IMG/VR virus record: IMGVR_UViG_3300047548_001372
Location: 21,329 to 85,328 of that record
Length of the DNA stretch: 64,000 nucleotides
From: a virus
Direction: 5' to 3' (one strand)
The translations under genes and the position numbers were made by a program. Positions 2,609 to 63,882 of this stretch are shown piece by piece. Each line of letters opens with the position of its first letter. The stretch's first letter is position 1. Under the pieces are notes generated by a model that was given only the letters and a program-made list of their open reading frames with translations, did no database searches and was not told the origin of the DNA.

Positions 2609-3856
2609 CTATACATCCATTCCCTTAAACCGCTGATATGGCCCACAGAAAAGGATAGACGTTGTACCAATAGGCCCAAAGCGATTCTTTAAGAAGTTCA
2701 CTTCTACATTACGAACTTCTGTGTTGGTATCATCAGGATTAAGCAGAAACACCACATCTGCTACCTGTGCAATCTCACCACTATCACGAATACCATCAAG
2801 CCCCTGACCATTGCGATTAAGTTGCGAGAGTGCTACAATGGTGATGTTTAATTCCTTGGCAAGAGCTTTTAGCGTTTCTGCTACTTCGCCAAGATCACTA
2901 TTGGTATTTCCTGTTGGATTATGATTTACGATCTGAATATAGTCAAGGAATACTACACGTACACCATTCTGGATGACATGCTCCCTAATTTCCTTTACCA
3001 TCTTATAGAGCGTAATCTTTCCATTATCAATAACATACATTGGTAACTTTTGCAGTGTGGTAACAACACGCTCAATATCCTGTGTCTGCTCTGGTGTCAA
3101 CCTACCACTTGCAATGTATCGGCTATCGATACTGAGTGTATCAGCAATCCATTTGACAAAGAGATCTTCTTTTGACATCTCAAGACTAAAGAATAGGCTT
3201 GGTGTAGGATCGTGATCACCATTGGTGTTAACCTGCCTTGCCATCTCTAGCATACTGTTCGCTACCAGTGTTGTCTTACCACCACCTGGCCCTGCTGCAA
3301 GTACAATAAAAGCCTTTGGCTTCCACTCACCACCCATTCGGATGTCCAACCAAGGCATACCAGTAGAAGCAAAACGATACTTCTTACCTAGCTTTGCGTG
3401 AAGATTACCAAGAAACTCTACAGCACCACCAGTAGTTGAACTATCTTCACCAGCACCTACTGCATGGAAGGATAGTGATCGCATAATATCACCATCGCTA
3501 GGACTAAACTGGCTTGCAATAAACTCAAACTCTTCTGCTTTCTGCCGTGCAACACGCTTCGTAGCTAGACGCACACAGTCATCAAATACCGCTGCAATAG
3601 ATGTTGTGTGAGATGCAAGAAGCTCTCCTGGAACTTCACCCTTGAGATGCAGTGATAGACCTCTAAGATCAAGAGAGCCATACTGAGTAAAAGTATCACG
3701 TAGTGCGCGAAAGACAATAACACGCTCTTCAGTAAACATCACCTCATTAATACGATGAAGATAGACAGCGTTCTTTGGATCAAGAAGAGCTGCAAGTAGC
3801 TTCCACTCACTTACCTCATCAACGAACACATTGCTGAAAGAAATACTTTTTGTCAT
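2609..3856 (-). CDS. dnaB: Replicative DNA helicase, DnaB family
   Basis: The 415-aa protein has an N-terminal DnaB-like helical domain (residues 10-110) and a RecA-type helicase domain. Walker A is GPGGGKTT at 189-196, Walker B is FLDY at 303-306 and SQLNR lies at 344-348. It would unwind DNA as a ring hexamer at the fork, loaded with the primase encoded just upstream. An in-frame extension to 3913 exists. The ATG at 3854-3856 is preferred because AGAAAGG sits just before it and family N-termini begin near this point. The gap to the primase gene is 35 nt and the next gene follows after 2 nt. Confidence 0.93.
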   Translation of the reverse strand: MTKSISFSNVFVDEVSEWKLLAALLDPKNAVYLHRINEVMFTEERVIVFRALRDTFTQYGSLDLRGLSLHLKGEVPGELLASHTTSIAAVFDDCVRLATKRVARQKAEEFEFIASQFSPSDGDIMRSLSFHAVGAGEDSSTTGGAVEFLGNLHAKLGKKYRFASTGMPWLDIRMGGEWKPKAFIVLAAGPGGGKTTLVANSMLEMARQVNTNGDHDPTPSLFFSLEMSKEDLFVKWIADTLSIDSRYIASGRLTPEQTQDIERVVTTLQKLPMYVIDNGKITLYKMVKEIREHVIQNGVRVVFLDYIQIVNHNPTGNTNSDLGEVAETLKALAKELNITIVALSQLNRNGQGLDGIRDSGEIAQVADVVFLLNPDDTNTEVRNVEVNFLKNRFGPIGTTSILFCGPYQRFKGMDV

Positions 3857-3891
3857 AAAGAACCTTTCTAATAGAGATACTGGTAGAGAGA

Positions 3892-4764
3892 TTAATAGCG
3901 AAATTGTAGCCACGTTTCATAAGGAAGCGCAGCTTGAAGAATACAGGGGAATAAGTCTGGTGCTTCTAGTAGGAATGAATCAATATCCATCTTCTCTTTA
4001 CCTAATGACGGTAGTGTTGCTACTCGGCAGGTGTCGAAGTTGGATGCAATGTTTATCACTGCCCGCGCAATAGTATACCGCTGCTCTGGTTGTGTGTCAA
4101 ATAGAATAATCACATCTTGACCATACTGCTGTCGAAAGCCTTTCCTCCATGTATTCATACCTGGAAGTGCTATAGTAGGATATCCATGTTGAAATGCAAT
4201 AGCGGCTTTAATTTCACCCTCTGTAAGAATGAGTGTTTTATTTTTTGATAGAAAGTAATTGTATGGATAATCTGCTCCTCTGAAGTATGTACTATGTCGT
4301 GGTGATTTGTATTTTTGTTCAGCTGTTTTTTCTAGTGTGCGCGCACGAATATCAGAAACCACACCATCAAAACCTATATAAGGAAACGTAACACGATTAG
4401 CAAAAAATGCTTTTCCCTGAACTGCTAATCCAGCATGCCGTGCTACATCCGTACGATACCAGATAGCAGAATCATCTGGACAATATCCAATACGTAGTTG
4501 AACAATTGTAGTATCTGTAAAGCCTCGTTGATATAACCATGCAGTAACTTCTGGTGTTAAGCAACTATGATAGTAGTTACTCATACGATCATAGTAATCA
4601 CGAATATGATCAAGTAATGGGCTTCTAGTAAGTGTGGTTGTTTTTTCTACACCATCAATATAGGCTTTATAACTACAACTAAAACAATACCCAAGATTAT
4701 TATGACTAGTAATGTAAAAATTACTTTTACCACAATGTGGGCATTCCTCTTTTTTTCCAGACAT
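3892..4764 (-). CDS. DNA primase with zinc finger and TOPRIM domain
   Basis: The 290-aa protein starts with a zinc ribbon (C8, C11, C27, C30), as in DnaG and T7 gp4 primases. After a linker a TOPRIM core is visible: LILTEGEIKA gives the catalytic glutamate and VIILFDTQPEQ gives the aspartate region, though the second acidic pair is weak (DTQ rather than DxD). It would make RNA primers for replication. The start at 4764 follows AAAGG. A longer in-frame start at 4821 would run through tandem repeats and add a hydrophobic tail, so it is rejected. It sits directly before dnaB, forming a separate primase and helicase pair. Confidence 0.87.
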   Translation of the reverse strand: MSGKKEECPHCGKSNFYITSHNNLGYCFSCSYKAYIDGVEKTTTLTRSPLLDHIRDYYDRMSNYYHSCLTPEVTAWLYQRGFTDTTIVQLRIGYCPDDSAIWYRTDVARHAGLAVQGKAFFANRVTFPYIGFDGVVSDIRARTLEKTAEQKYKSPRHSTYFRGADYPYNYFLSKNKTLILTEGEIKAAIAFQHGYPTIALPGMNTWRKGFRQQYGQDVIILFDTQPEQRYTIARAVINIASNFDTCRVATLPSLGKEKMDIDSFLLEAPDLFPCILQAALPYETWLQFRY

Positions 4765-4776
4765 AATATATACCTT

Positions 4777-4826
4777 TATAACAAAGAGTATAACAAAAAG
4801 TATAACAGAAAGATATAACAAAAAAG
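4777..4826. repeat. Four 12-13 bp tandem repeats (TATAACAAAAAG type)
   Basis: Copies start at 4777, 4789, 4801 and 4814. They fill the primase leader between the upstream terminator and the primase ribosome binding site, and read as TTTTTGTTATA units on the minus strand. Confidence 0.85.
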
Positions 4827-20329: not shown

Positions 20330-22079
20330 GTTGAAATTTATCTATATCTTTAATACGATTAGAAAGATCGTCAATAGATAAACGGTACCTCTGCGCAAAC
20401 TCTGCGGCTTGGTCAAAAGACATACCAGATTTTACAAGACTTTCTAAAACTCTATATTGAGCATCTGTAAACATACCTATATCTTCATCAAATGCTTGCA
20501 GCTGCCATCGGGCTTTATAAATATTGTTAGAATATTGTTGATATGCACCACCAGCTTCAATAGCAGCTTTTGCTGCGTTAAGGTTTGCAGTTTGCAGCTC
20601 AACAGTACGTTTTTCTAAAGCGTTTACCCTATCTAAAAGGTAGTCTGCTACCCCTCTAAAAGCAAAATCAGCAGCTCCTGCAGCAGGACGAGCTAGTTCT
20701 GCACTTAACCTACCAAATGCAGCAATTGTATCGTTAAAAGATCCAACAAGTTTATCATATGTAGTAGCGGCGAGCTGTGTTTTTTGATCAAGGATTTGCA
20801 TCCCAATACCCATATCTTCTAACAACACATCAAGCCCTTCCAGACGTTCTATTTCCGACCCTAATGCTTTGATACTATTAAGAGAGCTTCTACTAATTTC
20901 AAAGCGTCGTGAAAGTGACTGAATATCGCCGCTGAAAAATTCTTTTAATGCTACTGATGCACCTTTCATACCCTGAGCAGGATCAATAATAGCTAACCTA
21001 CGAGCTGTGTTTGCTAAACGATCTACTGCAATACCAGTCTGATTTGAAACATAAATAAAACCTGAAAGATCTTCAAGATTTTCCTGCAAACTACCGCCAT
21101 ACAACTCTTGTTGATTACGAGCAGCTTGCATAATATCATTAAATCTTGCCTGTGACTTACTTAACGCTTCAACAGTGCTTGTAATTTTTTCGAGCTCATT
21201 ACCAGCAGTAATAACTGCTCCAATGTTTGTAAATACTGCATTAAGTGCATATGCTGCACCAACATATGAATTTAAACCTTTTACTAATGCAAATAATGTA
21301 CCATTTAATCTACGTGAATCGGAGTCTGTTTGTTTCTGGTAACGCGCAAGTTGTGCTTGTGCGTTTGACCATTGAATTGTTTTAGTAATAACATCTCCAA
21401 ACTCTTTTTCAAGAGTATTAAGAGATGCTTGTAAATTATTTATAGCTTGAGCATGATTCTTTGCCGCTGCTTGCGCTCGTGCATCTGCCTGGGCTTTTTG
21501 TAAAATAGCTACCGCAGATTTTTGAACTTCCTGTTTTACACGTTCTTCAGCTTGTTTACGTTTATTTAATACAGAGCTTTGTTGTTTTTCTAAGTCAATA
21601 ATTTTTGCAATTATACCTTTATACTGAGCAAGAGTATTGTTGGAGTTTAATAATTCTATTTTTAACTTAGTGAGTGATGCCGAAAATTGATTTGTACCAA
21701 TTGCAAGTTTTGCGTTAGCAACTGCTAGATCAATAGCTGCTTGCCTAGATGCTTGTAGTGTTGCTTGATAAAGCGCAGAGTATTTTGCTCCTGTAATTGT
21801 TTTATCAGTAAATTGCTCTGAGTTTTTCGTCAATATACCCATTGCATTGTTTAATTGACCAGCAGCAGCACGCTGCTTTACAATAGCACTAATATACGCT
21901 AGGTTGGCAGCTTTTGCACGTTCTTGTATAGCTTGCTGTCTGTCTAGGTTTTGCGTAAGTATCTGCGCTCCTTGAGCAGCCTGCTGCATAGCTTGTGATG
22001 CCTCACGCATCACTTGACCAAGTCCTACGTCTTTACCAGAAATAGTTACCTGAACTGTTCCTAAATCGGCTGTTGTCAT
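20292..22079 (-). CDS. Tape measure protein, N-terminal part
   Basis: A 595-aa frame starting with ATG at 22077-22079 after AAGG. The first 300 residues are coiled coil with many Gln and Ala (REASQAMQQAAQGAQILTQN; KAQADARAQAAAKNHAQAI). A middle region (NSYVGAAYALNAVFTNIGAV) is the hydrophobic core typical of tape measure proteins. The frame stops at RIN in the overlap with the downstream frame. It follows the two overlapping tail chaperone genes, the canonical order. As predicted it would lack the C-terminal half unless a frameshift joins the frames. Confidence 0.8.
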   Translation of the reverse strand: MTTADLGTVQVTISGKDVGLGQVMREASQAMQQAAQGAQILTQNLDRQQAIQERAKAANLAYISAIVKQRAAAGQLNNAMGILTKNSEQFTDKTITGAKYSALYQATLQASRQAAIDLAVANAKLAIGTNQFSASLTKLKIELLNSNNTLAQYKGIIAKIIDLEKQQSSVLNKRKQAEERVKQEVQKSAVAILQKAQADARAQAAAKNHAQAINNLQASLNTLEKEFGDVITKTIQWSNAQAQLARYQKQTDSDSRRLNGTLFALVKGLNSYVGAAYALNAVFTNIGAVITAGNELEKITSTVEALSKSQARFNDIMQAARNQQELYGGSLQENLEDLSGFIYVSNQTGIAVDRLANTARRLAIIDPAQGMKGASVALKEFFSGDIQSLSRRFEISRSSLNSIKALGSEIERLEGLDVLLEDMGIGMQILDQKTQLAATTYDKLVGSFNDTIAAFGRLSAELARPAAGAADFAFRGVADYLLDRVNALEKRTVELQTANLNAAKAAIEAGGAYQQYSNNIYKARWQLQAFDEDIGMFTDAQYRVLESLVKSGMSFDQAAEFAQRYRLSIDDLSNRIKDIDKFQLDQGESLYSRIN

Positions 22080-26733: not shown

Positions 26734-28743
26734 TTAGTGTGTGAGCTTTAGCACACCAATGCCTTCGGGATCATCAACCATCATACCGTATGCCTGCCAG
26801 CAATGCAGCACATAGTTAGGTGGTTGAGTAGAAGGATCGGTGTAATCCTGAAACTCTGTTGCCCCGTAAAGAGCAATGATGCCAGGATTATCAGCAATAA
26901 TCAGCACCTTGTCATCAGGGATAAGACGATCAGCGCGAAGATTACCGCTGTACGCATTTGCAGGTAGCAGGTTACGTGTTACCTGTGGTAGTTCGATAAC
27001 AGGAATACCCGTGTAGCGAGTAACCTTGCGAGTGTTGGTAAACTCATTAAACGCAGACTCAATAGGAAATGCTACTGCATCCGTGTTGCTGCCGTTTAGC
27101 TCAAACTCACGAAACTGACCAAAGGTGTACATTGGTCGAAGAGCCTTGCGCGTACCCATAATAGCACGAACGTTCTGACCATTATCCAGCATACTTTCAA
27201 TCATTGTATCCAGAGGAGTCTGGGTAAGAGGGCCAGCAAGATCCTCATAGTTGTTTGGCGTATCGCTTTCGTTCCAAGTCGTGGTAAGCAGGTTAAACAC
27301 TTTGCTTACCAGATTGTCGAAAATATCAGCGCGAAGATCATTGCGCATCTGAGCAACACTACCAACTTCGCCCGAGTTAACTTCCCAGAGTGAGTGAGAA
27401 GTACCGGCGATAAGACGATCAAACACAAACGTATACTTGTCTACGAATGATGTCTGATCAGTGAGATGCTTTGAACCCAAAGATGTTCTGAATATATCGT
27501 TAAATATATTCCTTCCTATCACTAGGAAGATCAGACTATATCATCATCTCTTCGTATAGAAGAGAGCCTAACACGCGGTATGGTTATCTCTTGTGTTTAC
27601 GGCTTCCCGCGCAGCGGTTTCGCGAAGAGCTTTTCGTTCCTTTAACCGATTGTACACGATAGTTTTATCAACTTTATACGTAAAACTTGGTTGTACAAAT
27701 GGAGTGACAATATCAAGCATGCGATCCACATCTTTTGTTGACAATTGCAGATAGTATAACAATGAACCAACTTTTGAACGATACTGCTTGACGTTCCAGT
27801 CTAAGTTAAACTTCTCTTTTAATGCACTGCGTAGTAACATTTGTTCTGCATAGCAGAATGATTCAGTGGAAAGTGCAATTTCATGACGAAAGGTATCTTT
27901 TCGGAATGATCCACTATGCCATCCATCTTGTACAAACCAGATAGCAAGAAACTCTGCATCTAGTAATGTAAGATGATGTGGATCAATAACTTTACGTCCG
28001 ATAGGATACATTCTCTCACGAAAGTTTGTGTAGAATGGATGATGTCGTGATCGTATGCGTATAGTTGGTTTGATTGTTTTTGTTGCTGTTTTTACACCAG
28101 CCCGCACATCGTAACGAATACTTGTGATGTGTGATAAGCGATCTGCAATATAATCTAAATGATCAAGATGCTCTGATGTTTGTCCAAGTTCAAATCCGCT
28201 GTTTTCCTTATTCTTGCACGCAGTAACGTGCGCGTCTCCAAATAAACAAGCAGCTACAATCTTTGTAAGCTCTTTTCTATTTGGTGTAATGATAAGTGGT
28301 GCTTGAGTAACCACCTTCCTTGGTAGATTGACAGTAAGAACCTCTGTTTCTACTTCTTGTTCTAAACATACCATAGTCGTTGCTCTTCTCCATCAGGAGT
28401 AAGATCAGGATTGTCAACAAAATACATAAATATTGTTGATGTTCCCTGAGTTCTGTTAGGTGAAACATACAGTATCACTACTGTACGGCCCAGTTCAGCA
28501 GCTAGGCACCATCGTGCGAACAGGATACATACCACGACGAACACGGCGAGCAATTTCATCACCAGGAGCAATAGTCATGGTGGGCATGAAAGAACTAAAC
28601 AGATCAAGCGTGAGCTTGTTTGGCTGAATAACGTCCATCATCACTTCTGCATAGCTACTGCGACGGTTAGGGGCATTACCAGCACCGCGTGCATGTTCCG
28701 CAAGTGCCTTGATATATTTCTCTTCTAGCATTGACTTCTCCAT
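26734..28743 (-). CDS. Major capsid protein, gene split by a group I intron
   Basis: Exon 1 is 28743-28504 (80 codons, MEKSMLEEK to RTMVP) and exon 2 is 27477-26734 (GSKHLTDQTSF to LKLTH). Joined they give 327 aa. Unspliced, the first frame stops two codons into the intron. The product has a charged helical N-arm, then a mixed alpha/beta core (IFDNLVSKVFNLLTTTW; RKALRPMYTFGQFREF) and the ending NYVLHCWQAYGMMVDDPEGIGV seen in HK97-like capsid proteins. Its place between the decoration-like and connector genes is standard. The exon junction was set from the group I rules (U before, G at the end) and restores the frame exactly. Splicing is inferred, not shown. Confidence 0.85.
27478..28503 (-). 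mobile_element. Group I intron in the major capsid gene
   Basis: This 1,026-nt intron has 5' exon GTGCCT pairing with internal guide GGGC through a final U-G pair. The P7 strands are CGACTATGG (R, 28380-28371) and GATATAGTC (S, 27542-27534), and a clear P9 hairpin CTTCCTA/TAGGAAG follows S. The last base is G. Between R and S lies a LAGLIDADG endonuclease gene whose ATG is formed by the R strand. The reductase intron at 36640-37520 has the same junction logic, so the two are likely relatives. Confidence 0.85.
27568..28374 (-). CDS. LAGLIDADG homing endonuclease in the capsid intron
   Basis: A 268-aa protein with two LAGLIDADG helices: VAACLFGDAHV near residue 40 and LAIWFVQDGWH near residue 155. 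It resembles the single-chain LAGLIDADG_2 type with HHPFYTNFRERMYP between the motifs. It would cut intron-less capsid genes and so spread the intron. The start codon is the ATG inside the P7 R strand. The second endonuclease, at 36747-37433, shares HPFY, RERMY/RERLY and DPHHLTLLD/DPHYLKLFD. The acidic residue of the first motif is followed by AH rather than GY, which may or may not weaken activity. Confidence 0.88.
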   Translation of the reverse strand: MVCLEQEVETEVLTVNLPRKVVTQAPLIITPNRKELTKIVAACLFGDAHVTACKNKENSGFELGQTSEHLDHLDYIADRLSHITSIRYDVRAGVKTATKTIKPTIRIRSRHHPFYTNFRERMYPIGRKVIDPHHLTLLDAEFLAIWFVQDGWHSGSFRKDTFRHEIALSTESFCYAEQMLLRSALKEKFNLDWNVKQYRSKVGSLLYYLQLSTKDVDRMLDIVTPFVQPSFTYKVDKTIVYNRLKERKALRETAAREAVNTRDNHTAC

Positions 28744-32183: not shown

Positions 32184-32209
32184 AGAGAAACTCCTTTACA
32201 TGTATATAA

Positions 32210-32226
32210 GTAATAGTTTTTTCACA
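32210..32226 (-). promoter_or_regulatory. 17-bp leader motif, copy 2
   Basis: Identical to the copy at 30989-31005. Here it lies inside the transcribed leader, about 40 nt after the predicted start from the promoter at 32268-32296 and 27 nt before the regulator gene. Confidence 0.55.
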
Positions 32227-32267
32227 CTTTTGTAGATACTTTTGCGCGCAAAAAGTATTACCCAGAT

Positions 32268-32296
32268 AGTATACCACAAAATACTATAGTTGTCAA
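32268..32296 (-). promoter_or_regulatory. Sigma70 promoter for the leftward arm
   Basis: Minus strand TTGACA (32296-32291), 17-nt spacer, TATACT (32273-32268). Transcripts would start near 32261 and immediately form a near-palindrome with a GCGCGC core (32236-32257). Confidence 0.88.
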
Positions 32297-32335
32297 CTAC
32301 TGCGTATTTTTAAAAACTCTTTACACTCTACCAGA

Positions 32336-32371
32336 AAGTTATCTGGTAAGCTACCCAGTAAGCTACCAGGT
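32336..32371. repeat. Three 12-bp tandem repeats (AAGCTACCAGGT type)
   Basis: Units AAGTTATCTGGT, AAGCTACCCAGT and AAGCTACCAGGT at 32336, 32348 and 32360 lie upstream of the leftward promoter within the divergent spacer. Confidence 0.8.
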
Positions 32372-32395
32372 ATTATTTATGTATTTTTTTTTATA

Positions 32396-32460
32396 TGCTT
32401 TCTGTACATGCTCTCTGTATATTCTTTCTGGTTATTCTTTCTGTATATAGCTATCTGGAT
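32396..32460. repeat. Five 13-bp tandem repeats (TTCTTTCTGTATA type)
   Basis: Units start at 32396, 32409, 32422, 32435 and 32448. The first four are close copies and the fifth is diverged. They lie in the centre-left of the spacer between the two arms. Confidence 0.82.
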
Positions 32461-32542
32461 GATCATGTATATAGTATATAATATATACGCGCACACGCAT
32501 GAGGGCATTATGTAAAGTTTTAATAGTGTGCGTGTTGATAAA

Positions 32543-32696
32543 AACTATCAATTATAGGCATATGCCCCTGTAAGCTCGTAGGAGCCATTCTCAGGCACTT
32601 TAGGTAAAAACCCTAGTCAGGGTACCAAAAGCATCTTTCCGTCGCTCCTAGACCCCTTGTAGGCCCTCACAGAAGCATTGTAGAATATTGATAGTT
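32543..32696. ncRNA. Possible structured RNA bounded by a 10-bp inverted repeat
   Basis: AACTATCAAT (32543-32552) and ATTGATAGTT (32687-32696) bound a 154-nt stretch with nested complementary pieces: TAGGAGC/GCTCCTA (32579-32585, 32644-32650), GGTA/TACC and CCCT/AGGG (32603-32626), and a local GCTC/GAGC hairpin. It has no reading frame of note. It may be a small RNA, a leader element or a DNA structure. No known family is recognised. Confidence 0.4.
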
Positions 32697-32770
32697 GTCG
32701 GAGTAATTTGATGGATGGTTTTTGAGATAATTCACTCACCCGCACATAAAAATAGGGGAAAATTACCCTA

Positions 32771-32799
32771 TTGACATTTGTCTATGTGCGTGCTATAAT
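32771..32799 (+). promoter_or_regulatory. Consensus sigma70 promoter for the rightward arm
   Basis: Exact TTGACA (32771-32776), 17-nt spacer, exact TATAAT (32794-32799). The first gene begins 32 nt later with a full-length Shine-Dalgarno sequence. Confidence 0.93.
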
Positions 32800-32831
32800 A
32801 AAACCTGAAAGCAACAAACAAAGGAGGTGAT

Positions 32832-35445: not shown

Positions 35446-38432
35446 ATGTCAACATTTAGTGATACTATTTTAGCTCATAAGTATTTAAACAAAGATCTTG
35501 GTGAAACATCATGGGATGATGTTGCTCGTCGTGTTGCTTGGGAGGTTGTGGGGAAGAATTATCCGAGGGCTTACAAGGAAATCTACCAGATTATTAAAGA
35601 TAAGAAGTTTATTCCTGGTGGACGTTACCTGTATGCTGCTGGACGTCCGTATCATCAGACACAAAACTGTTTTGCTGCTGAAACACGTGTTCCATTTTAT
35701 GAAAATAGTCAATTCTGTGTAAAAACTGCACCAATTAAAGATCTTGTGGGAAAGCCAGATCTAGTGATTATGACAACTGATGGCAAGTGGACACAGGCAG
35801 AGATTAAGTCATTTGGTGTGCAAAAGCTCTCAAAGATTACACTACAACGACAGATTAACATTTATATGATTTCTGATGGTGGTACGTTGGAGACGTATGA
35901 AGAGAAAGTGATTTATGCCACACCTGGTCATTCTTGGCGTGTGCGGGCTGTAAACACAGATACCAAAGAAGTAAAGAAGCAAGAAGTACAGACAAAGCAT
36001 TTGAAGCCTAAGATGGAATTGTGGGATGTATATGATCGCGCACATCGTTGGGCTGTGATGTCTGTAGAAAAGACAGATCGCGAAGAGGAAGTATTTTGCG
36101 CGGTAGTAGAAAATACTCATGAGTTTGTCATTGAAGGAGATATTCTCACAGGAAACTGTCTACTTCTTGATGTAGAAGATACTCGTCAAGCATGGGCTGA
36201 TCTCTCTCGCAGATCGGTAGAAGGTCTTTCTACTGGTGCTGGTATTGGTGTGGTGTATTCAAAGATCCGCCCAAATGGAAGCCCTATCCGTGGTATGGGT
36301 GGTAAGGCTACTGGCCCTATTGCATTGATGCAGATGATCAATGAGCTTGGTAGGCATATTCAGCAGGGTGGAAGTAGGCGGTCGGCTCTTTGGGCTGGGC
36401 TTCACTGGAACCATGCAGATGTTCATGATTTTATTGCATTGAAGAATTGGATTCCTGAAGTGCGTGCGCTAAAGGAACAAGATTTTAATTTCCCCGCACC
36501 AATGGATGGTACGAACATTAGTGTTATTCTTGATGATGATTTCTTCAAAGCATATCATGATACCAATAATCCACAACATGTTCATGCGCATGATGTGCAT
36601 AAGAAGGTTGTGAGGAGTATGCTGAAGACTGGCGAGCCTAAATTCTGGGCCATTGTTAAGTAATTAACATTGTAAACTAATCTAAAAACGGTGAAAATCC
36701 TACTGGGAAAACACCGTGCTAATCCGATATGGAAAGCGTAACGACTATGATAGCTAATAAAAAAGAGTTCACCAAACTTGTATCGTCGTTTGTGTTGGGT
36801 GACGGATATTTGTCTACCACAAAGTCTTACTATCTTGTTGAACAGCGTACTGTAGAGCGTTCGCAATATAACAGAAAGAAGAACTCTGCTTATCGGTTAA
36901 AGCAGTTAAAAGTTCATCAAGATTATGTGGAGTGGCAAGTATCTATTTTGGAAGAGCTTACATCTGTACACTTGGTAGTGGTTCCACACAGTGTAGACAG
37001 CCGTGGACATAATTCTAATGAAAGATATCAACTGTCTACAAAAACACATCCATTCTACACAGCAATGCGCGAGCGATTGTATAACAGTGGTGTCAAGCAG
37101 TTAGATCCACATTATCTAAAACTGTTTGACTGGCAATCAGCAGCAATTCTGTATATGGATGATGGTTGGATTGATGTAGAACCAAGGCTAACAAAAGAAA
37201 CATATGTGCGGGCTAGTATAGCTTCTCACAGTTACACCTATGCAGAAAACCTTTTACTTAAGCAAGTACTAAAAGAGAAGCTAGGTATTGAGTTTAATGT
37301 ACGACGTCACAAACAACGATCTGGTGAATACAAGTGGTACTTGGAAGCTAAAAAAGATCACGCAAAGCGGTTTCTTTCTGGTATAGAAAGATACGTATTT
37401 CCAAGTTTTTATTATAAGCTGTCGTATGATTAGCTCCTACTATAGCGTAGGATGGTGATATAGTCTCATCTGTATGGTAACATGCAGGTATAGTTGGAAA
37501 CTTCTATACATAAGATTTTGGGATTTAGCATTGACGTTGGTAAGAATGCAGGTGAGCATCTTCGGAACGCTTGCACCGAGGTAACAAGTGCTGATGATTC
37601 AGATGTCTGTAACATTAGCTCTATCAATCTTGCTCGTATTGAAACACTGGATGAGTTTAAGCATGTAGTCAATCTTGCAATGATCTTCCTACTCTGCGGT
37701 ACCTTATACAGTAAAGTACCATTTGCAGAAGTTGCAGCAACACGTGAGAAGAATAGACGTCTTGGATTAGGTTTGATGGGCATGCATGAATGGCTTCTTG
37801 TGCGCGGGAAGAAGTATGGCCCAGATCCAGAATTAGCCACATGGCTAGAACACTACGCTACATCAACAGACATTGCAGCAGGATATGCTGATGAACTTGG
37901 TATCAGCCGTTCGGTAAAGACACGGGCTATTGCTCCAACAGGCACCATTAGTATTATTGCAGAAACAACATCTGGTATCGAACCATTGTTCTGCTCTGCA
38001 TTTAAGCGCCGATACTTGAAGGGAAATACCTGGCATTACCAATATGTGGTCGATGCAACAGCACAGCGTATTATTGAGCGTGGTGTTGATCCTGATAGCA
38101 TTGAAGACGCATACTCACTGGCAAATGATGTAGAACGTCGATTGGCATTCCAGTCGTTTGTACAGCAGTATGTTGACCACGGTATTTCTAGTACGATCAA
38201 TCTTCCTGCTTGGGGAAGTGATTTGAATAACGAAACACGGGTTGACTCATTCGCTGATATGTTGATGAAGTACCTTCCAACACTGCGCGGTATTACGACG
38301 TATCCTGATGGTGCTCGTGGTGGGCAGCCGTTGGTAGCAGTACCATATCGTGAAGCAGTGAATCAAACTGGTACTGAGTTTATTGAGTATGGGAATGAGA
38401 ATGCGTGTGTAAGTGGGGTGTGTGGGATTTAG
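35446..38432 (+). CDS. nrdJ: Class II-type ribonucleotide reductase, split by an intein and a group I intron
   Basis: Exon 1 is 35446-36639 (398 codons) and exon 2 is 37521-38432 (303 codons); joined they read GEP-GFSIDVGKN, the conserved GEPG region. The precursor is 701 aa, or 538 aa after removal of the 163-residue intein (C75-N237). Conserved pieces include LSTGAGIGVVYSKIRPNGS, DSDVCNISSINLARI, APTGTISIIAETTSGIEPLF and the tail CVSGVC (two redox cysteines four apart). No small subunit gene is seen in the window, so a B12-dependent class II enzyme is likely. It makes deoxyribonucleotides. The intein sits directly before a conserved cysteine in QTQN-CLLL. Both elements must be removed for activity. 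Confidence 0.85.
35668..36156 (+). mobile_element. Mini-intein in ribonucleotide reductase
   Basis: Residues C75 to N237 of the reductase (163 aa). The start CFAAETRVPF matches intein block A, block B is YATPGHSW, and the end EFVIEGDILTGN is followed by C238. The residue before the last Asn is Gly rather than the usual His, a known variant. The length leaves no room for a homing endonuclease. Splicing would join N74 to C238. Confidence 0.87.
36640..37520 (+). mobile_element. Group I intron in ribonucleotide reductase
   Basis: The 881-nt intron has 5' exon end GAGCCT pairing with guide GGGC (UGGGCC at 36646-36651) with a final U-G pair. P7 strands are CGACTAT (36742-36748) and GATATAGTC (37457-37465), and the intron ends in G at 37520. 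It hosts a LAGLIDADG gene starting within the P7 R strand. Exon joining is exact in frame. It is a sister of the capsid intron. Confidence 0.85.
36747..37433 (+). CDS. LAGLIDADG homing endonuclease in the reductase intron
   Basis: A 228-aa protein with two motifs, VSSFVLGDGYL near residue 12-22 and AAILYMDDGWI near residue 132-142; both keep the catalytic aspartate. Shared sequence with the capsid-intron enzyme includes HPFYTAMRERLY and DPHYLKLFD. The start at 36747 is the ATG in the P7 R strand, in parallel with the other intron; a longer start at 36729 is possible. It would cut intron-less reductase genes and spread the intron. Confidence 0.88.
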   Translation: MIANKKEFTKLVSSFVLGDGYLSTTKSYYLVEQRTVERSQYNRKKNSAYRLKQLKVHQDYVEWQVSILEELTSVHLVVVPHSVDSRGHNSNERYQLSTKTHPFYTAMRERLYNSGVKQLDPHYLKLFDWQSAAILYMDDGWIDVEPRLTKETYVRASIASHSYTYAENLLLKQVLKEKLGIEFNVRRHKQRSGEYKWYLEAKKDHAKRFLSGIERYVFPSFYYKLSYD

Positions 38433-41779: not shown

Positions 41780-44359
41780 ATGCCTATACGAAAAAAATTA
41801 GATGAAAAGGATTTAGATCTTTTAGAAGTACTAGAAGATGAAGTTTGGCTAACTGAGTTTTTACGCAATACATCAGACGGTGAACATAACCGTGCACTTT
41901 GGCCAGCACAACCATGGAAGTATCGAGACTATCAAAAACAACTACTTACTGATAAATCAAAATACATCTCACTTACTGGGGGACGTGCTATTGGTAAGTG
42001 TGAGCCTGGTGAAGCAAAGATCCTTACCGTAGGGCGTGGATATATGATGTTGAAAGATCTGGTGAAAGAAACATCATTTCCAGTGTATGCACTAGATCAA
42101 TACTCTAATCTTGTTCAGCGTAGAGCACGAGTTACACCAGATGACATGGCTCCAGTAAAAAAGATTTATACTCGTGCGGGGCATTTAATACACGTCACAG
42201 CAGAACATCCAATCCTTACACCAGATGGATGGGTAAAAGCAGAAAATATTGATGTAGGATCGTTGGTTGGTGTATTGACACAAATACCCAACGATATGAT
42301 CAGTCAAACATTTGCCTGGCATGAATTACGGTTTTTTGGATATATCTTACTAGATCCTCCATTGCGCGAAAGTACTGTTTTTGTACCAAAGTATAAAAAG
42401 ATTGGAGAAGAGTTTAAGTACATCTGTTCTCTTTTACCAGTAGATGTATTTCCTCGTGAGAATGGGTTTGGTGTGCGTAGGATTAAAGGTGGGTATTTTT
42501 CTACAATCCGCGCACTTTACAATGATGTAGGTTTTGATGATGACTACGTATTTTCCTTGCGTATGTCAAGTATGCCAGAGCTGCTACTGTTAGAATGTAA
42601 AGAAAATCTTAAAGTATTTCTTGAAGCGCTGTTTGCTCAATTTGCAGAAGTATCTGCGCGGGAGATTAGTATATTTACACGCTACGAATCACTCACTTTT
42701 GCACTACAAACAATGCTCTTGCGTTTTGGCATTGAATCACGTATTACTACAAAAGACGAACCAAATAGTTATACTCTGGAAATACTTGATTACGAGAACG
42801 TGTATGATTTCTGGAAAACATTCACATTACCTGGTGTATCTGTTGATCAGTTAGAAGAGCCTGTACGTAAAGCACGAGTAAATGCACATCTTCGGTATGA
42901 TGAGGTAGTGTATGTGGATATGCCAATATATCCAGTACAAACATACGCTGTCCATGTGCGCGAAGATAATAACTACATCTCCAGTAACATCTACGTACAC
43001 AACACCGTAGTACTTGAAGATAAAATTATTTATGAAGTAGTAAACTATGAGCGTGAGTTTCCTGTTACACCAGAGCAGGTACTTACCACAGCGAACCAGT
43101 CGCAGATGCAGCCATTGCTGTCAAAACTTATACAACGTTTTACTTCAAGTCCATTACTAAAACATTATTTACAAAACAATGTAAATAAACAAGATGGTAC
43201 GATGAGGTTTCCTGCACGAAGTAAACCATTTACGTTTTACTTTCGTATTGCAGGTAGTAAAGGCGAAAACAACGTTGTAGGACTTCACGTACCTAAAGTA
43301 AAGATTGATGAAGCACAACTGTACCCACCAAATGCGTACACACAACTGCTTCCGATTATTAACTACTGGGAACCTAAAACACAACTTCTTATTACTGGGG
43401 TGTCAAATGGTTTACGTAATTCAGTATTGTATTTAGTAGATCAGAAAGATCCGAAGTTTAAGAAATATCGTATTCCCTCGCACAATAACCCATTCTACTC
43501 ACGAGAACAAGATCTGCAAAACTTACGTGATTGGGGTGGTGAGAACGATGATCGCTATGTTCAGCTTGTGCTTGGTAGACATGGATCGGCTGCATTTCAA
43601 ATCCTTACCAGAGATGATTTTAAAGTAGAAAGTTTTCCATTTCATAACTATCGATACCAAAGTAATCAGAAGATGAAAGGTATCCACTATCATGAGGTAC
43701 TAGGTACACCTGCTATTCCAGAATCAATTCAGCTTGTAATGGCTATTGATACAGGATTTGTTGATCCTACCATTATTCAGCTTATTGGTATGGATAAGTA
43801 TCATATCTGGAGAACTTATTGTAGGTATCAACTTAATCGTATTGACTTTACTGAGCAGCGAAAGATTATTCACTGGTTAGCTACAGAATATAATGTACCG
43901 ACAATTGCCATGGATATTGGTGCAGGTGGTGGGGGCGCTGGTATTATGCACGCACTACTTCACGAGGATGAGTACAAAAACGATAATTACAGTCAGCGTA
44001 TTGTACCAGTTATTTTTAATGAAAAGATTGTTGTAGGATTACGTGAATCTGGTGAGGAAGTAGCAGATGATGCAAAATCACATGGTACAAAAGTGCTAGT
44101 GACTGAAGTTCAATCAAGCCGATTAGTATTTAGTGATGTAGATCATGAAGGGATTTCACAACTTGAAAGAATATCGAAACAGAAACTTAGCACTGGAAAA
44201 GATCGTTATTTTGTATTATCCGATCGTGGAAGTGGTGCAGATTCAAATGATCACATTTATGCCAGTTATATTTGTTTTGGTATTGCAATTGACCGTGGTT
44301 TAGTAAAGCCCGCGCAAGCACCACGTAAGTTAGCTTCTGTGTCTGGTGTGTATACGTAA
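41780..44359 (+). CDS. terL: Terminase large subunit with an intein in Walker A
   Basis: The 859-aa precursor contains an intein at residues 74-408; removal leaves 524 aa. The joined extein reads GGRAIGK-TVV, a complete Walker A. Walker B is KIDEAQ (a DEAQ-type box). The C-terminal nuclease half has MAIDTGFVDPT and AMDIGAGGGG carrying the metal-binding aspartates. It packages DNA into proheads using ATP. The gene is followed after 49 nt by the portal. Without splicing the ATPase site is broken, so activity depends on the intein. Confidence 0.92.
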   Translation: MPIRKKLDEKDLDLLEVLEDEVWLTEFLRNTSDGEHNRALWPAQPWKYRDYQKQLLTDKSKYISLTGGRAIGKCEPGEAKILTVGRGYMMLKDLVKETSFPVYALDQYSNLVQRRARVTPDDMAPVKKIYTRAGHLIHVTAEHPILTPDGWVKAENIDVGSLVGVLTQIPNDMISQTFAWHELRFFGYILLDPPLRESTVFVPKYKKIGEEFKYICSLLPVDVFPRENGFGVRRIKGGYFSTIRALYNDVGFDDDYVFSLRMSSMPELLLLECKENLKVFLEALFAQFAEVSAREISIFTRYESLTFALQTMLLRFGIESRITTKDEPNSYTLEILDYENVYDFWKTFTLPGVSVDQLEEPVRKARVNAHLRYDEVVYVDMPIYPVQTYAVHVREDNNYISSNIYVHNTVVLEDKIIYEVVNYEREFPVTPEQVLTTANQSQMQPLLSKLIQRFTSSPLLKHYLQNNVNKQDGTMRFPARSKPFTFYFRIAGSKGENNVVGLHVPKVKIDEAQLYPPNAYTQLLPIINYWEPKTQLLITGVSNGLRNSVLYLVDQKDPKFKKYRIPSHNNPFYSREQDLQNLRDWGGENDDRYVQLVLGRHGSAAFQILTRDDFKVESFPFHNYRYQSNQKMKGIHYHEVLGTPAIPESIQLVMAIDTGFVDPTIIQLIGMDKYHIWRTYCRYQLNRIDFTEQRKIIHWLATEYNVPTIAMDIGAGGGGAGIMHALLHEDEYKNDNYSQRIVPVIFNEKIVVGLRESGEEVADDAKSHGTKVLVTEVQSSRLVFSDVDHEGISQLERISKQKLSTGKDRYFVLSDRGSGADSNDHIYASYICFGIAIDRGLVKPAQAPRKLASVSGVYT
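41999..43003 (+). mobile_element. Intein in terminase Walker A, with degenerate endonuclease
   Basis: Starts C74 (CEPGEAKILTV, block A), block B is VTAEHPILTPDGW, and the end is YAVHVREDNN to YVHN (H407, N408), followed by Thr409. The insert is 335 aa, larger than a mini-intein. The middle has LAGLIDADG-like remains (ELRFFGYILLDPPL; LTFALQTMLLRFGIESRI) but the acidic catalytic positions are not kept, so the endonuclease is probably inactive. Confidence 0.88.
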
Positions 44360-59517: not shown

Positions 59518-59587
59518 ACTTTTTACTACAGTTTTACCAGCGTTTTTACCACACTTCTACCACACTTTTTACCATATTTCTTACCAT
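59518..59587. repeat. Six 11-12 bp tandem repeats (ACTTTTTACCAT type)
   Basis: Units at 59518, 59530, 59541, 59553, 59564 and 59576. They share a TTTTACCA core. Confidence 0.8.
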
Positions 59588-59885
59588 CAATATGCAGTTA
59601 TTCTGTGTATTGGTGGTATTTTTTTTTTATTTTAGTGCTTTTTTTATTGCTTTCTGGTTAGTTTTGATATGTATACATCACCCCCCTCCCCCGCACCTAC
59701 TACCACCGGTCGTTGTGTCGGCCCCCATGCCGGTGTAGCGCGTCTGAATGGTTGATAAATCGCAACTTGGTTAAGGAATCGCAACAATTCACCGGCTTTA
59801 CTTGACAATAACGCAAAGTGCGGTATGAGCCTGACAATGAAAGTTGCTAAAGCGATCATGAAACATTTAGAATGATCATAGAAAC

Positions 59886-59948
59886 CGCTTGAAACATGCA
59901 TCAAACTGCGTCAACGATCATCGTAATCGCTTGAAACATGGATCAAAC
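59886..59948. repeat. Two copies of CGCTTGAAACATG-ATCAAAC, 42 bp apart
   Basis: The 21-mers at 59886-59906 and 59928-59948 differ at one base (C/G). An inverted copy of the 13-bp core is at 61244-61256, on the far side of the two-gene island. They could be binding sites or ends of a mobile unit. Confidence 0.75.
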
Positions 59949-60042: not shown

Positions 60043-60630
60043 ATGGATCGGCTTATGGGATGGACACCTAATGACAGGCTGTCTTATGACGGGGATATAG
60101 ATCTCCGCCGCGCACGCAGTAGGATTCGGGAGTATGTTGACGCTTTTCATAAGGCGCCTGTATACGAATTGCGCTATGTAGCCGTTACTCAACTTCGGGA
60201 GTTGACAGATGCGATTCAGACTCTTAACTGGACTAGCTTACGCGGTCATGAACCATGTGTTGAAGGAATGACCGCGCTTATGCGCCAGCTATGGGCACTA
60301 AGCTCAATAGGCGATTGGGAAAATAACGATATCGTTGACCTTGGTATGATGAGTGCGGTAGCGTTACACTTCGGACAGACCGCGGGCTGCGATAGCGCAT
60401 GGGATGCGGCGGCTATGCCTGTTTGGCGTCTAGGTGAAAGGCTGGCATCAGATTGGATACCGATCATTAATGGGCGTACGGCAGGCTGCGGGCTTAATCT
60501 ACGTCAAGGTAAGATCGCGGCGGCGATCGGTAGTGATGTACTGCTAGTCCGATCGGCAAGGGATAGGATGCACTACTACGGCAAGGATAAATTTGAATCG
60601 CTTAGGGTTTCTTTTCTGGAGGTAATCTAA
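60043..60630 (+). CDS. Hypothetical protein, 195 aa, island gene 1
   Basis: Not recognised. GGAGGG lies just before ATG 60043; longer in-frame starts at 59977 and 60028 are less likely. The protein is helical with Trp, Arg and Ala (RRARSRIREYVDAFHKAP; AAMPVWRLGERLASDW). GC content and codon use (CGC, GCG) differ from the rest of the phage, suggesting a separate origin. It overlaps the next gene by one base. In this region it may be a replication or copy-control factor. Confidence 0.6.
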   Translation: MDRLMGWTPNDRLSYDGDIDLRRARSRIREYVDAFHKAPVYELRYVAVTQLRELTDAIQTLNWTSLRGHEPCVEGMTALMRQLWALSSIGDWENNDIVDLGMMSAVALHFGQTAGCDSAWDAAAMPVWRLGERLASDWIPIINGRTAGCGLNLRQGKIAAAIGSDVLLVRSARDRMHYYGKDKFESLRVSFLEVI

Positions 60631-60917
60631 TGTCATACGTTACTTCGATTACACTTAAGCGCGAGTCATTGACCGCGCTCCTGAACGCACAATCGAATTG
60701 GGAAGCGCATGCGGTAGTCCGATATGCGCTTGAATGTGACACCATTTCGACTAACGCGCTTGCAATCCGCGGTTTGAGGGTACCACTTGCGCCAGGGTTG
60801 CGCGATCGGATTAAAGCCAAGATGGCGATCGAAGGGACACCCGCAAAAATCCGCATACGGATCTATCGGGATATGCGACGCTACCGGCGCACGCGCTATT
60901 GTGTCGATTTTCGTTAG
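60630..60917 (+). CDS. Hypothetical basic protein, 95 aa, island gene 2
   Basis: Start TAATG overlaps the previous stop. The last 40 residues are strongly basic (RDRIKAKMAIEGT, RIRIYRDMRRYRRTRY), suggesting nucleic acid binding. It has the same unusual composition as gene 1. The pair is framed by its own promoter and terminator, so it is an independent unit. Confidence 0.6.
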   Translation: MSYVTSITLKRESLTALLNAQSNWEAHAVVRYALECDTISTNALAIRGLRVPLAPGLRDRIKAKMAIEGTPAKIRIRIYRDMRRYRRTRYCVDFR

Positions 60918-60943: not shown

Positions 60944-60978
60944 CCCCTTAGGCAATGCGCCTAAGGGGTTTTTTTTTG
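60944..60978 (+). terminator. Rho-independent terminator of the two-gene island
   Basis: Perfect arms CCCCTTAGGC (60944-60953) and GCCTAAGGGG (60959-60968) with a 5-nt loop, followed by a run of about ten T. Confidence 0.95.
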
Positions 60979-60997
60979 TTTCGGTGCATAGCTGGTA

Positions 60998-61183
60998 GGC
61001 TTGCTCTCAGGCTTGCTCTCAGGCCTGAGAGCAGCGGTCAACCGTCGACGCACTCCACCAAGCTTGGTGGAGTGTTGCTGCTCTCAGGCTTGCTCTCAGG
61101 CTTGCTCTCAGGCCTGAGCGTATCGAGCGCTTCGGCCTGCACACTCGCCTCCCAGCTCAGGCTTGCTCTCAGGCTTGCTCTCA
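60998..61183. repeat. Three pairs of a 12-bp repeat (GGCTTGCTCTCA) with nested palindromes
   Basis: Tandem pairs start at 60998, 61087 and 61160. Between the first two pairs lie a 24-bp perfect palindrome CACTCCACCAAGCTTGGTGGAGTG (split for reading as 61051-61062 and 61063-61074) and outer arms CTGAGAGCAGC (61025-61035) and GCTGCTCTCAG (61078-61088). The whole could fold as a stem with repeats at its base. Confidence 0.85.
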
Positions 61184-61252
61184 GATCTATCAAATATCCT
61201 ACGCGAATCATACGCTAATCTATGATTCACATGGTATGCTACGCATGTTTCA

Positions 61253-61333
61253 AGCGGTTTTCAAGCGATTTTGACGCATTCTGAATCGATCGATTCGTGA
61301 TCAGAATCCGTCAAAAATCGATCAGAAACCGCT
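61253..61333. repeat. Large imperfect palindrome, 81 bp
   Basis: Outer arms AGCGGTTT/AAACCGCT (61253-61260 and 61326-61333), inner arms TTTTGACGCATTCTGA (61269-61284) and TCAGAATCCGTCAAAA (61301-61316), and a central perfect 14-bp palindrome GAATCGATCGATTC (61283-61296). It is near the DnaA boxes. Confidence 0.8.
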
Positions 61334-61559
61334 CAAAATTGCTTTAGGCCGTGAACTATTCGGCATGCGAATGGTTCGCGATGCGAAGCAAATAGAACAT
61401 GCGTTCTACGAGTGCCGGTAGTAGACCCGGTAATTTGCTATGCCCAAAATCCATTTGTGCATTTTAACCAATAATATATATTGAATTTATTTTCTTTTTA
61501 CCATAATCGGCCTGAACTTTCATGGGCATTTGTGCAAAATATCCAAATTGGAAATGTTT

Positions 61560-61590
61560 TGTGGATAAATTGTGGATAACATGTGGATAA
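61560..61590. other. Three consensus DnaA boxes, 11 bp apart: candidate origin
   Basis: TGTGGATAA (reverse of TTATCCACA) occurs at 61560-61568, 61571-61579 and 61582-61590, all in the same orientation with 11-bp steps. Neighbouring AT-rich DNA (61440-61660) has little coding potential. This is what a host-initiator-dependent replication origin would look like. Confidence 0.75.
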
Positions 61591-62419
61591 CTTGGCAATA
61601 ATTTGGTTTTTTGCCTACCAATTTTTACCAAAAATCCACTTTTAGCACAGGCATGCTAATCTGTCTAGACTGTCTAGTTGTGCATAGTATCCAATAGGTT
61701 TTCCTCTTTTTATACCAGTAAAATACCTATAACACAGTAATCTATACCAGAGTATATTGTACCATAGCGTATGGAATATACCAGTAATCGATAATTCCAT
61801 ACGCTGTATCATTCTGGTATAGATATATGGTATGGTATGGTATTTTTTATATTGTGTTGTATGGTATTTTTTGGTATTTTTACCTTTAGCCGCGCATTGT
61901 ACACAATGCACAATTGTGCATAATTCTAGCTATTCCTGAAAAATACTATATACAATATCGATTCACCTATAGACAATTCATTATATCTCTCTATCTATCA
62001 TGTGTTATGGAATTAGAGAATTGTTGAATTGTTATACGTTAGCCGCGCAAAGTATGAATTGTCTATAATTCTCTGTCAAAAATATCAGAAAAGTATATAT
62101 CTTTCCTGAATAAAACATAGTTTTAAATTTATTCCCGAAATTTTGAAAATAGAACCAAATTGCTATTTTTGAGCTGCTAGGTTTTATCGTACCATACTAT
62201 GTGCTATAGTATACATGCGCGGTAAGGGTATATACCATACCCCCGCTACAATACCTCTATAACGCGCTATACGCCATCCTAACGCACGATAAATCTTTTC
62301 TGGTATGATACCATACCCGGCCTATTTTGAGCGCCTTAAAATACCTATTTTGAGCCTCTATGATATACAGTATGGAATAACGATTACTAGATAGAGTAGT
62401 AATTAGAATAAAAAAAAAA
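61591..62419. other. Gene-free AT-rich region with many inverted repeats
   Basis: Inverted repeats include AGCGTATGGAAT/ATTCCATACGCT (61766-61777, 61794-61805), TATAGACAATTCAT/ATGAATTGTCTATA (61968-61981, 62054-62067), and palindromes GCATTGTACACAATGC and TGCACAATTGTGCA near 61900. GGTAT/ATACC words and CTATTTTGAGC copies (62168, 62320, 62343 areas) recur. No convincing gene is seen; open frames are low-complexity. Confidence 0.6.
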
Positions 62420-62829: not shown

Positions 62830-63882
62830 CTATGCCAGATCCATAATCGCACTATACGCGCTATTGCGCATAGCCAGCCCATCCCCCAACAAGTCATAGT
62901 TCGCACGTGCGTGCGAGTCCATTTTCCTACCGCGGCTGCCAAGCGTACCATGCTGATTCGATCCATACTCCGTCACAGCCTGATAGGCATGGTAGCCGCT
63001 ACCAAGGTGTGACTCTTGCACACCGAACGCAGTTACCCAATTTTGAGTCAACTGGTTCTTTACGCGAGTCACAGATTCGCATTTTTGCGTATAGATATAT
63101 TCGATTGATTCACGCTTTGCGCTATCAATCTTATCTTTCATACCAGACCGTAACAGATTCGGCATGGTGGGCATGGGACAGATAATATTGAGAATGTTAA
63201 CAAAATCGTTATCTGTTACCGCAACAGAAAAGAGATTGTCAATTGCGGCTAACATCTCTGCGTGCGCAGCATTCGCTTGCGCAATAAGCTCTAACGCCCA
63301 CTGTGCCACGCTACGATACCCACCATGATGCCTAATAGTTAGGCGGCTATTAGCGTTGCGCAAGGCAAGATCGTGCGTATTTTTGCAAACAATTTTGATA
63401 TTGCTTGCAATAGCAGAGGATGCCGTGCGCCCATCACGCGATTCAATGTAGCTGAAATAGCGGCTAAAATCATCCCCCCTAATCTGGTAATCGCCCATGT
63501 CAAGCGTACCAAACATCGTGGCACCGTTATGAATAATTCCCGCTGTGCTAAAGCGCCAGCCCGTTGCGCTTGCTAATGAGTCTAGTTCGTTAGCCAATTG
63601 CGTATTTTGCCAATATTCGTAATCCCTACCACAGTTACCCAAGTAAGCATACTCCCCGCTTGAGTCAACGGGATCCCTAAATAGCCCGTAGCTACCAGTA
63701 TCGATTACCATGCCGTTAGGCATGGTAGCCGTTAGCGGCATCTTATGGATGCCGAAATCCATACCCGGCACCGACTCTACTGCCTTTACGAACGACTCCA
63801 TAGTAGAGTCAACGTTACCTAACGAATGCCATGCCGACTCGGTACCAACAAACATGCGCCCTGCCAAAATATCATCCGGCAT
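62830..63882 (-). CDS. DUF932 phage/plasmid-like protein, 350 aa
   Basis: The protein matches the DUF932 (TIGR03299) pattern: start region GTESAWHSLGN, later LFRDPVDSSGEYAYLGNCGRDYEYWQN, RDGRTASSAIASNIKIVCKNTHDLAL and the ending with TEYGSN. The family is widespread on phages and plasmids and its biochemical role is not established. GGGAG precedes the ATG at 63880-63882. Its own promoter and stem-loop make it a separate unit beside the candidate origin, where a replication-linked role would fit. Confidence 0.85.
   Translation of the reverse strand: MPDDILAGRMFVGTESAWHSLGNVDSTMESFVKAVESVPGMDFGIHKMPLTATMPNGMVIDTGSYGLFRDPVDSSGEYAYLGNCGRDYEYWQNTQLANELDSLASATGWRFSTAGIIHNGATMFGTLDMGDYQIRGDDFSRYFSYIESRDGRTASSAIASNIKIVCKNTHDLALRNANSRLTIRHHGGYRSVAQWALELIAQANAAHAEMLAAIDNLFSVAVTDNDFVNILNIICPMPTMPNLLRSGMKDKIDSAKRESIEYIYTQKCESVTRVKNQLTQNWVTAFGVQESHLGSGYHAYQAVTEYGSNQHGTLGSRGRKMDSHARANYDLLGDGLAMRNSAYSAIMDLA

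Follow-up and report, generated by a model that had tools for sequence, protein, structure and literature searches.

In bacteria, replication is started by the master initiator DnaA. Three DnaA boxes lie at 61560–61590 in the window analysed here, which comprises the last 64 kb (positions 21329–85328) of an 85,328-bp IMG/VR virus record; all coordinates below are those of the window. This locus raises the question of whether a phage begins its replication here with the initiator of its host, or whether the boxes hold DnaA to some other end.

The array of DnaA boxes

The boxes are located at 61560–61568, 61571–61579 and 61582–61590, each 11 bp from the one before and each found as an exact motif match. 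All three read TGTGGATAA on the + strand (starting at 61560, 61571 and 61582) and hence TTATCCACA on the minus strand. They share one orientation with a period of 11 bp, the 2-bp spacers being AT and CA, and on the + strand CTT comes directly after box 3, a sequence that most other arrays also have there. A sequence-only reading of the window had described three perfect boxes in one orientation and in helical phase, and these exact matches bear it out.

That reading had also called the arrangement improbable by chance, with which the statistics agree. With the 85,328-bp record modelled as a first-order Markov chain, 1.1 exact boxes are expected and 5 are observed, while triple arrays in the same phase are expected 4.6e-11 times, and triples with any two spacings of 9–31 bp 2.4e-8 times. 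Nowhere else in the record do three boxes (with at most one mismatch) fall within a stretch of 120 bp.

Occurrence in viral and bacterial genomes

The exact triple pattern is found in at least 119 stretches of viral contigs, and triple clusters with free spacing in at least 120, apparently from only part of the collection; a reversed-letter control gave 19 stretches over the whole viral collection. The spacings within 98 dereplicated viral clusters concentrate at 11–12 and 21–23 bp, and 80% are in helical phase, compared with 35% if they were uniform. According to a simple ORF caller, 59 of 81 dereplicated viral arrays are intergenic; noncoding DNA makes up 14% of the contigs concerned. A common CC-TGTGGATAA-CTT flank is seen beside the helical phasing at the viral loci L005–L123 and L139–L244.

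The identical pattern occurs in at least 118 stretches of bacterial genomes. Among the matches listed, dnaA or dnaN lies within ~4 kb of 54 of 118 bacterial loci, in contrast to 1 of 119 viral ones; dereplication leaves 42 oriC loci. For 8-kb loci in genomes of ~4 Mb, such proximity would be expected in ~0.2% of cases. The bacterial frequency indicates that the triple array is a recurrent component of oriC, and the near absence of dnaA and dnaN beside the viral loci that these are not mis-binned chromosomal origins. Contamination of the viral matches by bacterial oriC was thus rejected (dnaN in 1 of the 119 matches listed). A 43-nt query spanning the array had no match in 5,426 Escherichia coli genomes.

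These comparisons also dispose of the notion that chance or low complexity created the array. A location in AT-rich noncoding DNA makes such a coincidence slightly more probable, but with ~5e-11 expected occurrences, and with the same pattern elsewhere strongly phased and tied to oriC, that explanation is refuted, its probability being practically nil.

Viewed as a class, the viral arrays have no more AT-rich elements at their flanks than expected, the AT profiles being weak around viral arrays and modest around bacterial ones. A candidate unwinding element at the present array thus rests upon this locus and not upon the class, and for many of the viral arrays the lack of an AT-rich flank favours titration of DnaA. 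DnaA-trios of the BUS type, for which the criterion is three or more within ~16 bp of the boxes (PMC8287927), were not found near the array; control arrays from oriC were likewise not above shuffled sequences, so this comparison discriminates poorly.

The intergenic region and a candidate unwinding element

The array is contained in a gap of 1,451 bp (60969–62419) located between two predicted convergent intrinsic terminators. The rightward gene arm ends in a + strand terminator with a 10-bp stem and T8 (60944–60968), and the leftward arm in a minus-strand terminator with a 13-bp stem and T10 (62448–62420). No convincing gene was found between them, as had been claimed, and the opposing terminators are strong, so that the array is probably shielded from both gene arms. 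The description of the region as AT-rich holds locally, with 36% GC around the boxes and ~30% GC at 61.7–62.2 kb, and the palindromes said to lie nearby were found close to the array.

A candidate DNA unwinding element (DUE) occupies 61461–61500 (no strand assigned), where 36 of 40 nucleotides are A or T. This is the AT-richest 40-mer of the 85-kb record, tied with one other place, and is at the 99.9th percentile for its side. A distance of 59 bp separates its end from box 1, and it lies on the side corresponding to that of the DUE relative to R1 in E. coli oriC. A TTATTT sequence starts at 61487 on the + strand, inside the candidate DUE, and TTGT is found at 61530; the corresponding motifs lie 50 and 30 bp before R1 in E. 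coli oriC. Motifs of this type are required for the binding of DnaA to the opened strand (PMC5742627). They are short, and the likeness to E. coli is therefore only suggestive.

On the other side of the boxes, TACCA and TGGTA pentamers are clustered at 61600–62419 (no strand assigned). Sixteen are present, a tenfold excess over the mean of 1.6 in base shuffles (maximum 6 of 500). Further to the left there are TTTTTACCA repeats with 23-bp spacing (59520–59583). Both sets are possible binding sites of a phage DNA-binding protein.

Several other repeats are present. A 12-bp direct repeat, AGGCTTGCTCTC, occurs as three pairs at 60997–61182, just downstream of the rightward terminator and beside long inverted repeats in the gap. 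A perfect 18-nt inverted repeat, AAACCGCTTGAAACATGC at 59882–59899 and GCATGTTTCAAGCGGTTT at 61243–61260, is absent from the rest of the record. It flanks an island of higher GC content (~50% compared with 40%) with two ORFs (60043–60630 and 60630–60917) that have no family matches, and the island looks like an inserted module. Searches of Rfam and for tRNA gave no match, nor did the array region match the DNA of cultured phages.

The phage, its replication genes and its relatives

The record encodes a portal, a large terminase with an intein-like insertion and an endolysin, and so belongs to a tailed phage. Its replication genes include a DnaB-like helicase (2609–3913, minus strand; Pfam DnaB_C, 1e-49; phrog_19, 2e-59) and a DnaG-like primase (3892–4821, minus strand). 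A PolA-type polymerase and a RecA-like protein were recognised from their sequences, with homologs in the relative G003, and a RecB/Cas4-type exonuclease and a Holliday-junction resolvase are also encoded. No DnaA domain, no match to Rep_3 (PF01051) and no tyrosine integrase were found in the phage record. Any DnaA would consequently have to come from the host. A search for the host through portal homologs in genomes found none.

The relative G003 (106,876 bp, 57% portal identity) is colinear but rotated, and G006 and G009 (148 and 153 kb) have 35–36% portal identity. None of the three records, which may be incomplete, contains the array; G003 contains a stretch with few genes close to where its own arms converge (22.3–23.6 kb in its own coordinates), and the array is lacking there. 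To judge from its absence in three large relatives, the array is specific to this lineage and lies outside the core replication of the family. Searches with the DUF932 protein, an FtsK-like ATPase and the ORF at 60043–60630 gave no further relatives.

A probable host-DnaA platform and its possible use as an origin

The suggestion that the phage uses the DnaA of its host is well supported, given that it has no dnaA of its own, that the array is tied to bacterial oriC and that an AT-rich element lies on the expected side. The array is very likely a real platform for host DnaA of the oriC type. The phage probably recruits host DnaA, be it to initiate its own replication or to sequester the protein.

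The array resembles oriC in its exact TTATCCACA boxes and their same-strand orientation. As in E. coli, where the DUE precedes R1, the AT-rich element lies on the DUE side of TGTGGATAA, TTGT lies 30 bp before the first box and TTATTT is on the same strand. Unlike bacterial oriC, the array has only three boxes, no dnaA–dnaN nearby and no DnaA-trios found, and is carried by a phage; the distance of 59 bp from box to DUE is longer than in E. coli.

That the array is the replication origin of the phage is plausible. More specifically, we tentatively propose, as something close to an even possibility, that the array and the AT-rich element at 61461–61500 form a host-DnaA-dependent initiation site. 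The DnaA binding, melting, helicase loading and origin use that we infer would proceed as follows. Host ATP-DnaA molecules would sit next to one another in the three boxes, all on the same helical face, and oligomerise head to tail. The resulting filament would melt the AT-rich element 59 bp away and hold it open, allowing a DnaB-type helicase, either that of the host or that of the phage (2609–3913), to be loaded there, after which the phage primase and PolA-type polymerase would extend.

Weighing in favour of an origin are the uniqueness of the array and its occurrence beyond chance, the association with oriC, the phasing, the candidate DUE, the lack of DnaA and Rep_3 in the phage and the terminators. 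Counted against it are the phage's own replisome, the lack of the array in relatives, the lack of DnaA-trios and the absence of a class-wide AT excess.

Possible titration of DnaA and the arrays of cultured phages

The main rival of the origin reading is DnaA titration. Rather than starting phage replication, the array would then act as a sponge, taking up more and more host DnaA as the phage multiplies its genome; this would suppress initiation in the host in the manner of datA or a DnaA-box cluster and free the host's replication resources. We consider this less likely than an origin, though it has several observations on its side. Many unrelated phage contigs carry arrays that have no AT-rich element next to them, arrays are also present in cultured T7-like, T5-like and other phages, and helicase, primase and polymerase are all encoded by the phage itself. 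Boxes carried on plasmids titrate DnaA in E. coli (PMC5835720), and an excess of datA does the same (PMC5742627). Yet with only three boxes, many genome copies would be needed for sequestration, and titration alone leaves unexplained why so AT-rich an element lies on the oriC-like side and why the array is placed between terminators. The phage locus is like datA and other DnaA-box clusters in being a noncoding cluster of high-affinity boxes. In datA, however, the boxes are widely spaced and an IHF site is required between them (PMC5742627), whereas the phage has 11-bp tandem boxes, with 2-bp spacers too short for such a site, and a candidate DUE.

Similar runs of boxes lie in noncoding DNA of Escherichia phage P483, Shigella phage A7, Lactococcus phage AM1 and Arthrobacter phage Tiff81, and clusters of boxes in Vibrio phage BD1 and the T5-like SH9. 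Like the present array, those of cultured phages have same-strand boxes at helical spacings in noncoding DNA; they differ in being less perfect and in belonging to unrelated phages, and those of Tiff81 and the Berlinvirus phages lie near record ends or a packaging gene. A need for DnaA is not known for T7-type replication. The presence of boxes or arrays in Berlinvirus and T5-like phages is counted against the origin reading. No function of the cultured-phage arrays is reported in the literature searched.

In the T7-like Berlinvirus phages P483 (L264) and A7 (L265) the runs of boxes adjoin a DNA-packaging gene, and A7 has further runs near the start of its record.

Comparison with plasmid origins

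The sequence-only reading had offered derivation from a plasmid-like replicon as another possibility. Although small plasmids do carry DnaA arrays, this is not supported, as neither Rep_3 nor a tyrosine integrase was found. Runs of boxes with 11-bp spacing occur in the symbiont plasmid pSOE2 (two runs of seven) and a Palibaumannia plasmid (six), and Buchnera plasmid pBTc2 has one 11-bp pair and no annotated rep gene. The tandem runs and the pair in these small plasmids resemble the phage array, and DnaA-assisted plasmid and phage-plasmid origins (P1 oriR, F, RK2 and pSC101) likewise have boxes in a noncoding gap. The phage differs in that no Rep_3 protein was found in it, and P1-type iterons were not identified, though TACCA/TGGTA pentamers are nearby. 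DnaA boxes serve the origins of P1, F, RK2 and pSC101 (PMC4980987); together with the phased boxes of pBTc2, a plasmid without an annotated rep gene, this is counted for the origin reading.

The occurrence of arrays in small plasmids, and the regulation of bacterial promoters by DnaA (PMC5742627), could also point to a DnaA-regulated transcription element or to the remnant of a plasmid-like replicon. However, no gene starts beside the array and the predicted terminators shield it on both sides, while the record lacks a match to Rep_3 or tyrosine integrase; either is very improbable.

GC skew and a possible alternative origin

The genes left of ~32.2 kb are directed leftward and those at 32.8–60.9 kb rightward. 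On a circular map, circularity being presumed, both arms would converge at 60.9–62.5 kb; no end repeat was found in the record. The cumulative GC skew has its minimum, of origin type, at 32,670, within a divergent intergenic region (32184–32831, no strand assigned), and a local maximum of terminus type at ~61.2 kb. The proposal of a candidate origin was to be checked by GC skew, which goes partly against it; the use of host DnaA stays well supported. Bidirectional forks starting from 61.5 kb would moreover run head-on into all transcription, and both this and the terminus-type skew are counted against an origin there.

The main origin could instead be the divergent promoter region at 32.2–32.8 kb, the gap at 61 kb being a terminus or a packaging or concatemer-junction region and the array secondary or structural. 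The positions of the skew extremes and the co-directional genes of both arms agree with this, as do arrays or box clusters of cultured phages lying beside the packaging gene (Berlinvirus) or no more than ~100 bp from the record end (Arthrobacter phage Tiff81 and Vibrio phage BD1). At 32.5 kb, however, neither an initiator nor an iteron was identified, and skew and gene orientation are fully confounded; the genes being co-oriented within each arm, skew is inseparable from transcription and does not decide the position of the origin. An origin at 32 kb is, on this evidence, improbable.

Phased arrays in phages

DnaA-box arrays as such are already known; their abundance in phages appears to be little described, and no description of helically phased arrays across many phages was found in the literature searched, which covered few subscription journals. 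It is conceivable, though we hold it with some doubt, that phased arrays are a widespread and repeatedly acquired accessory of unrelated phages, including lytic ones, which captures host DnaA and serves either as an additional origin or as a decoy for shutting off initiation in the host. The present phage, with an unwinding element of its own, would then be among the most oriC-like.

A phage with its own helicase, primase and polymerase and in addition an oriC-like DnaA platform offers a concrete, testable site for the capture of host DnaA. The recurrence of arrays with strict helical phasing in many viral contigs suggests that phages share a strategy so far little described, which could be tested in the cultured array-bearing phages P483, A7 and AM1, and the class-level pattern of phasing and common flank merits separate study.

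Two further observations concern the genome at large. The genes of the major head protein, ribonucleotide reductase and large terminase (26734–28743, 35446–38432 and 41780–44359) are interrupted by intein- or homing-endonuclease-like insertions, and the endonucleases at 27568–28374 and 36729–37433 match the same region of G003. Directly right of the gap is the gene of a DUF932 protein (phrog_1221; 62830–63882); many actinobacteriophage records have distant homologs of this protein (~25% identity) close to their right end.
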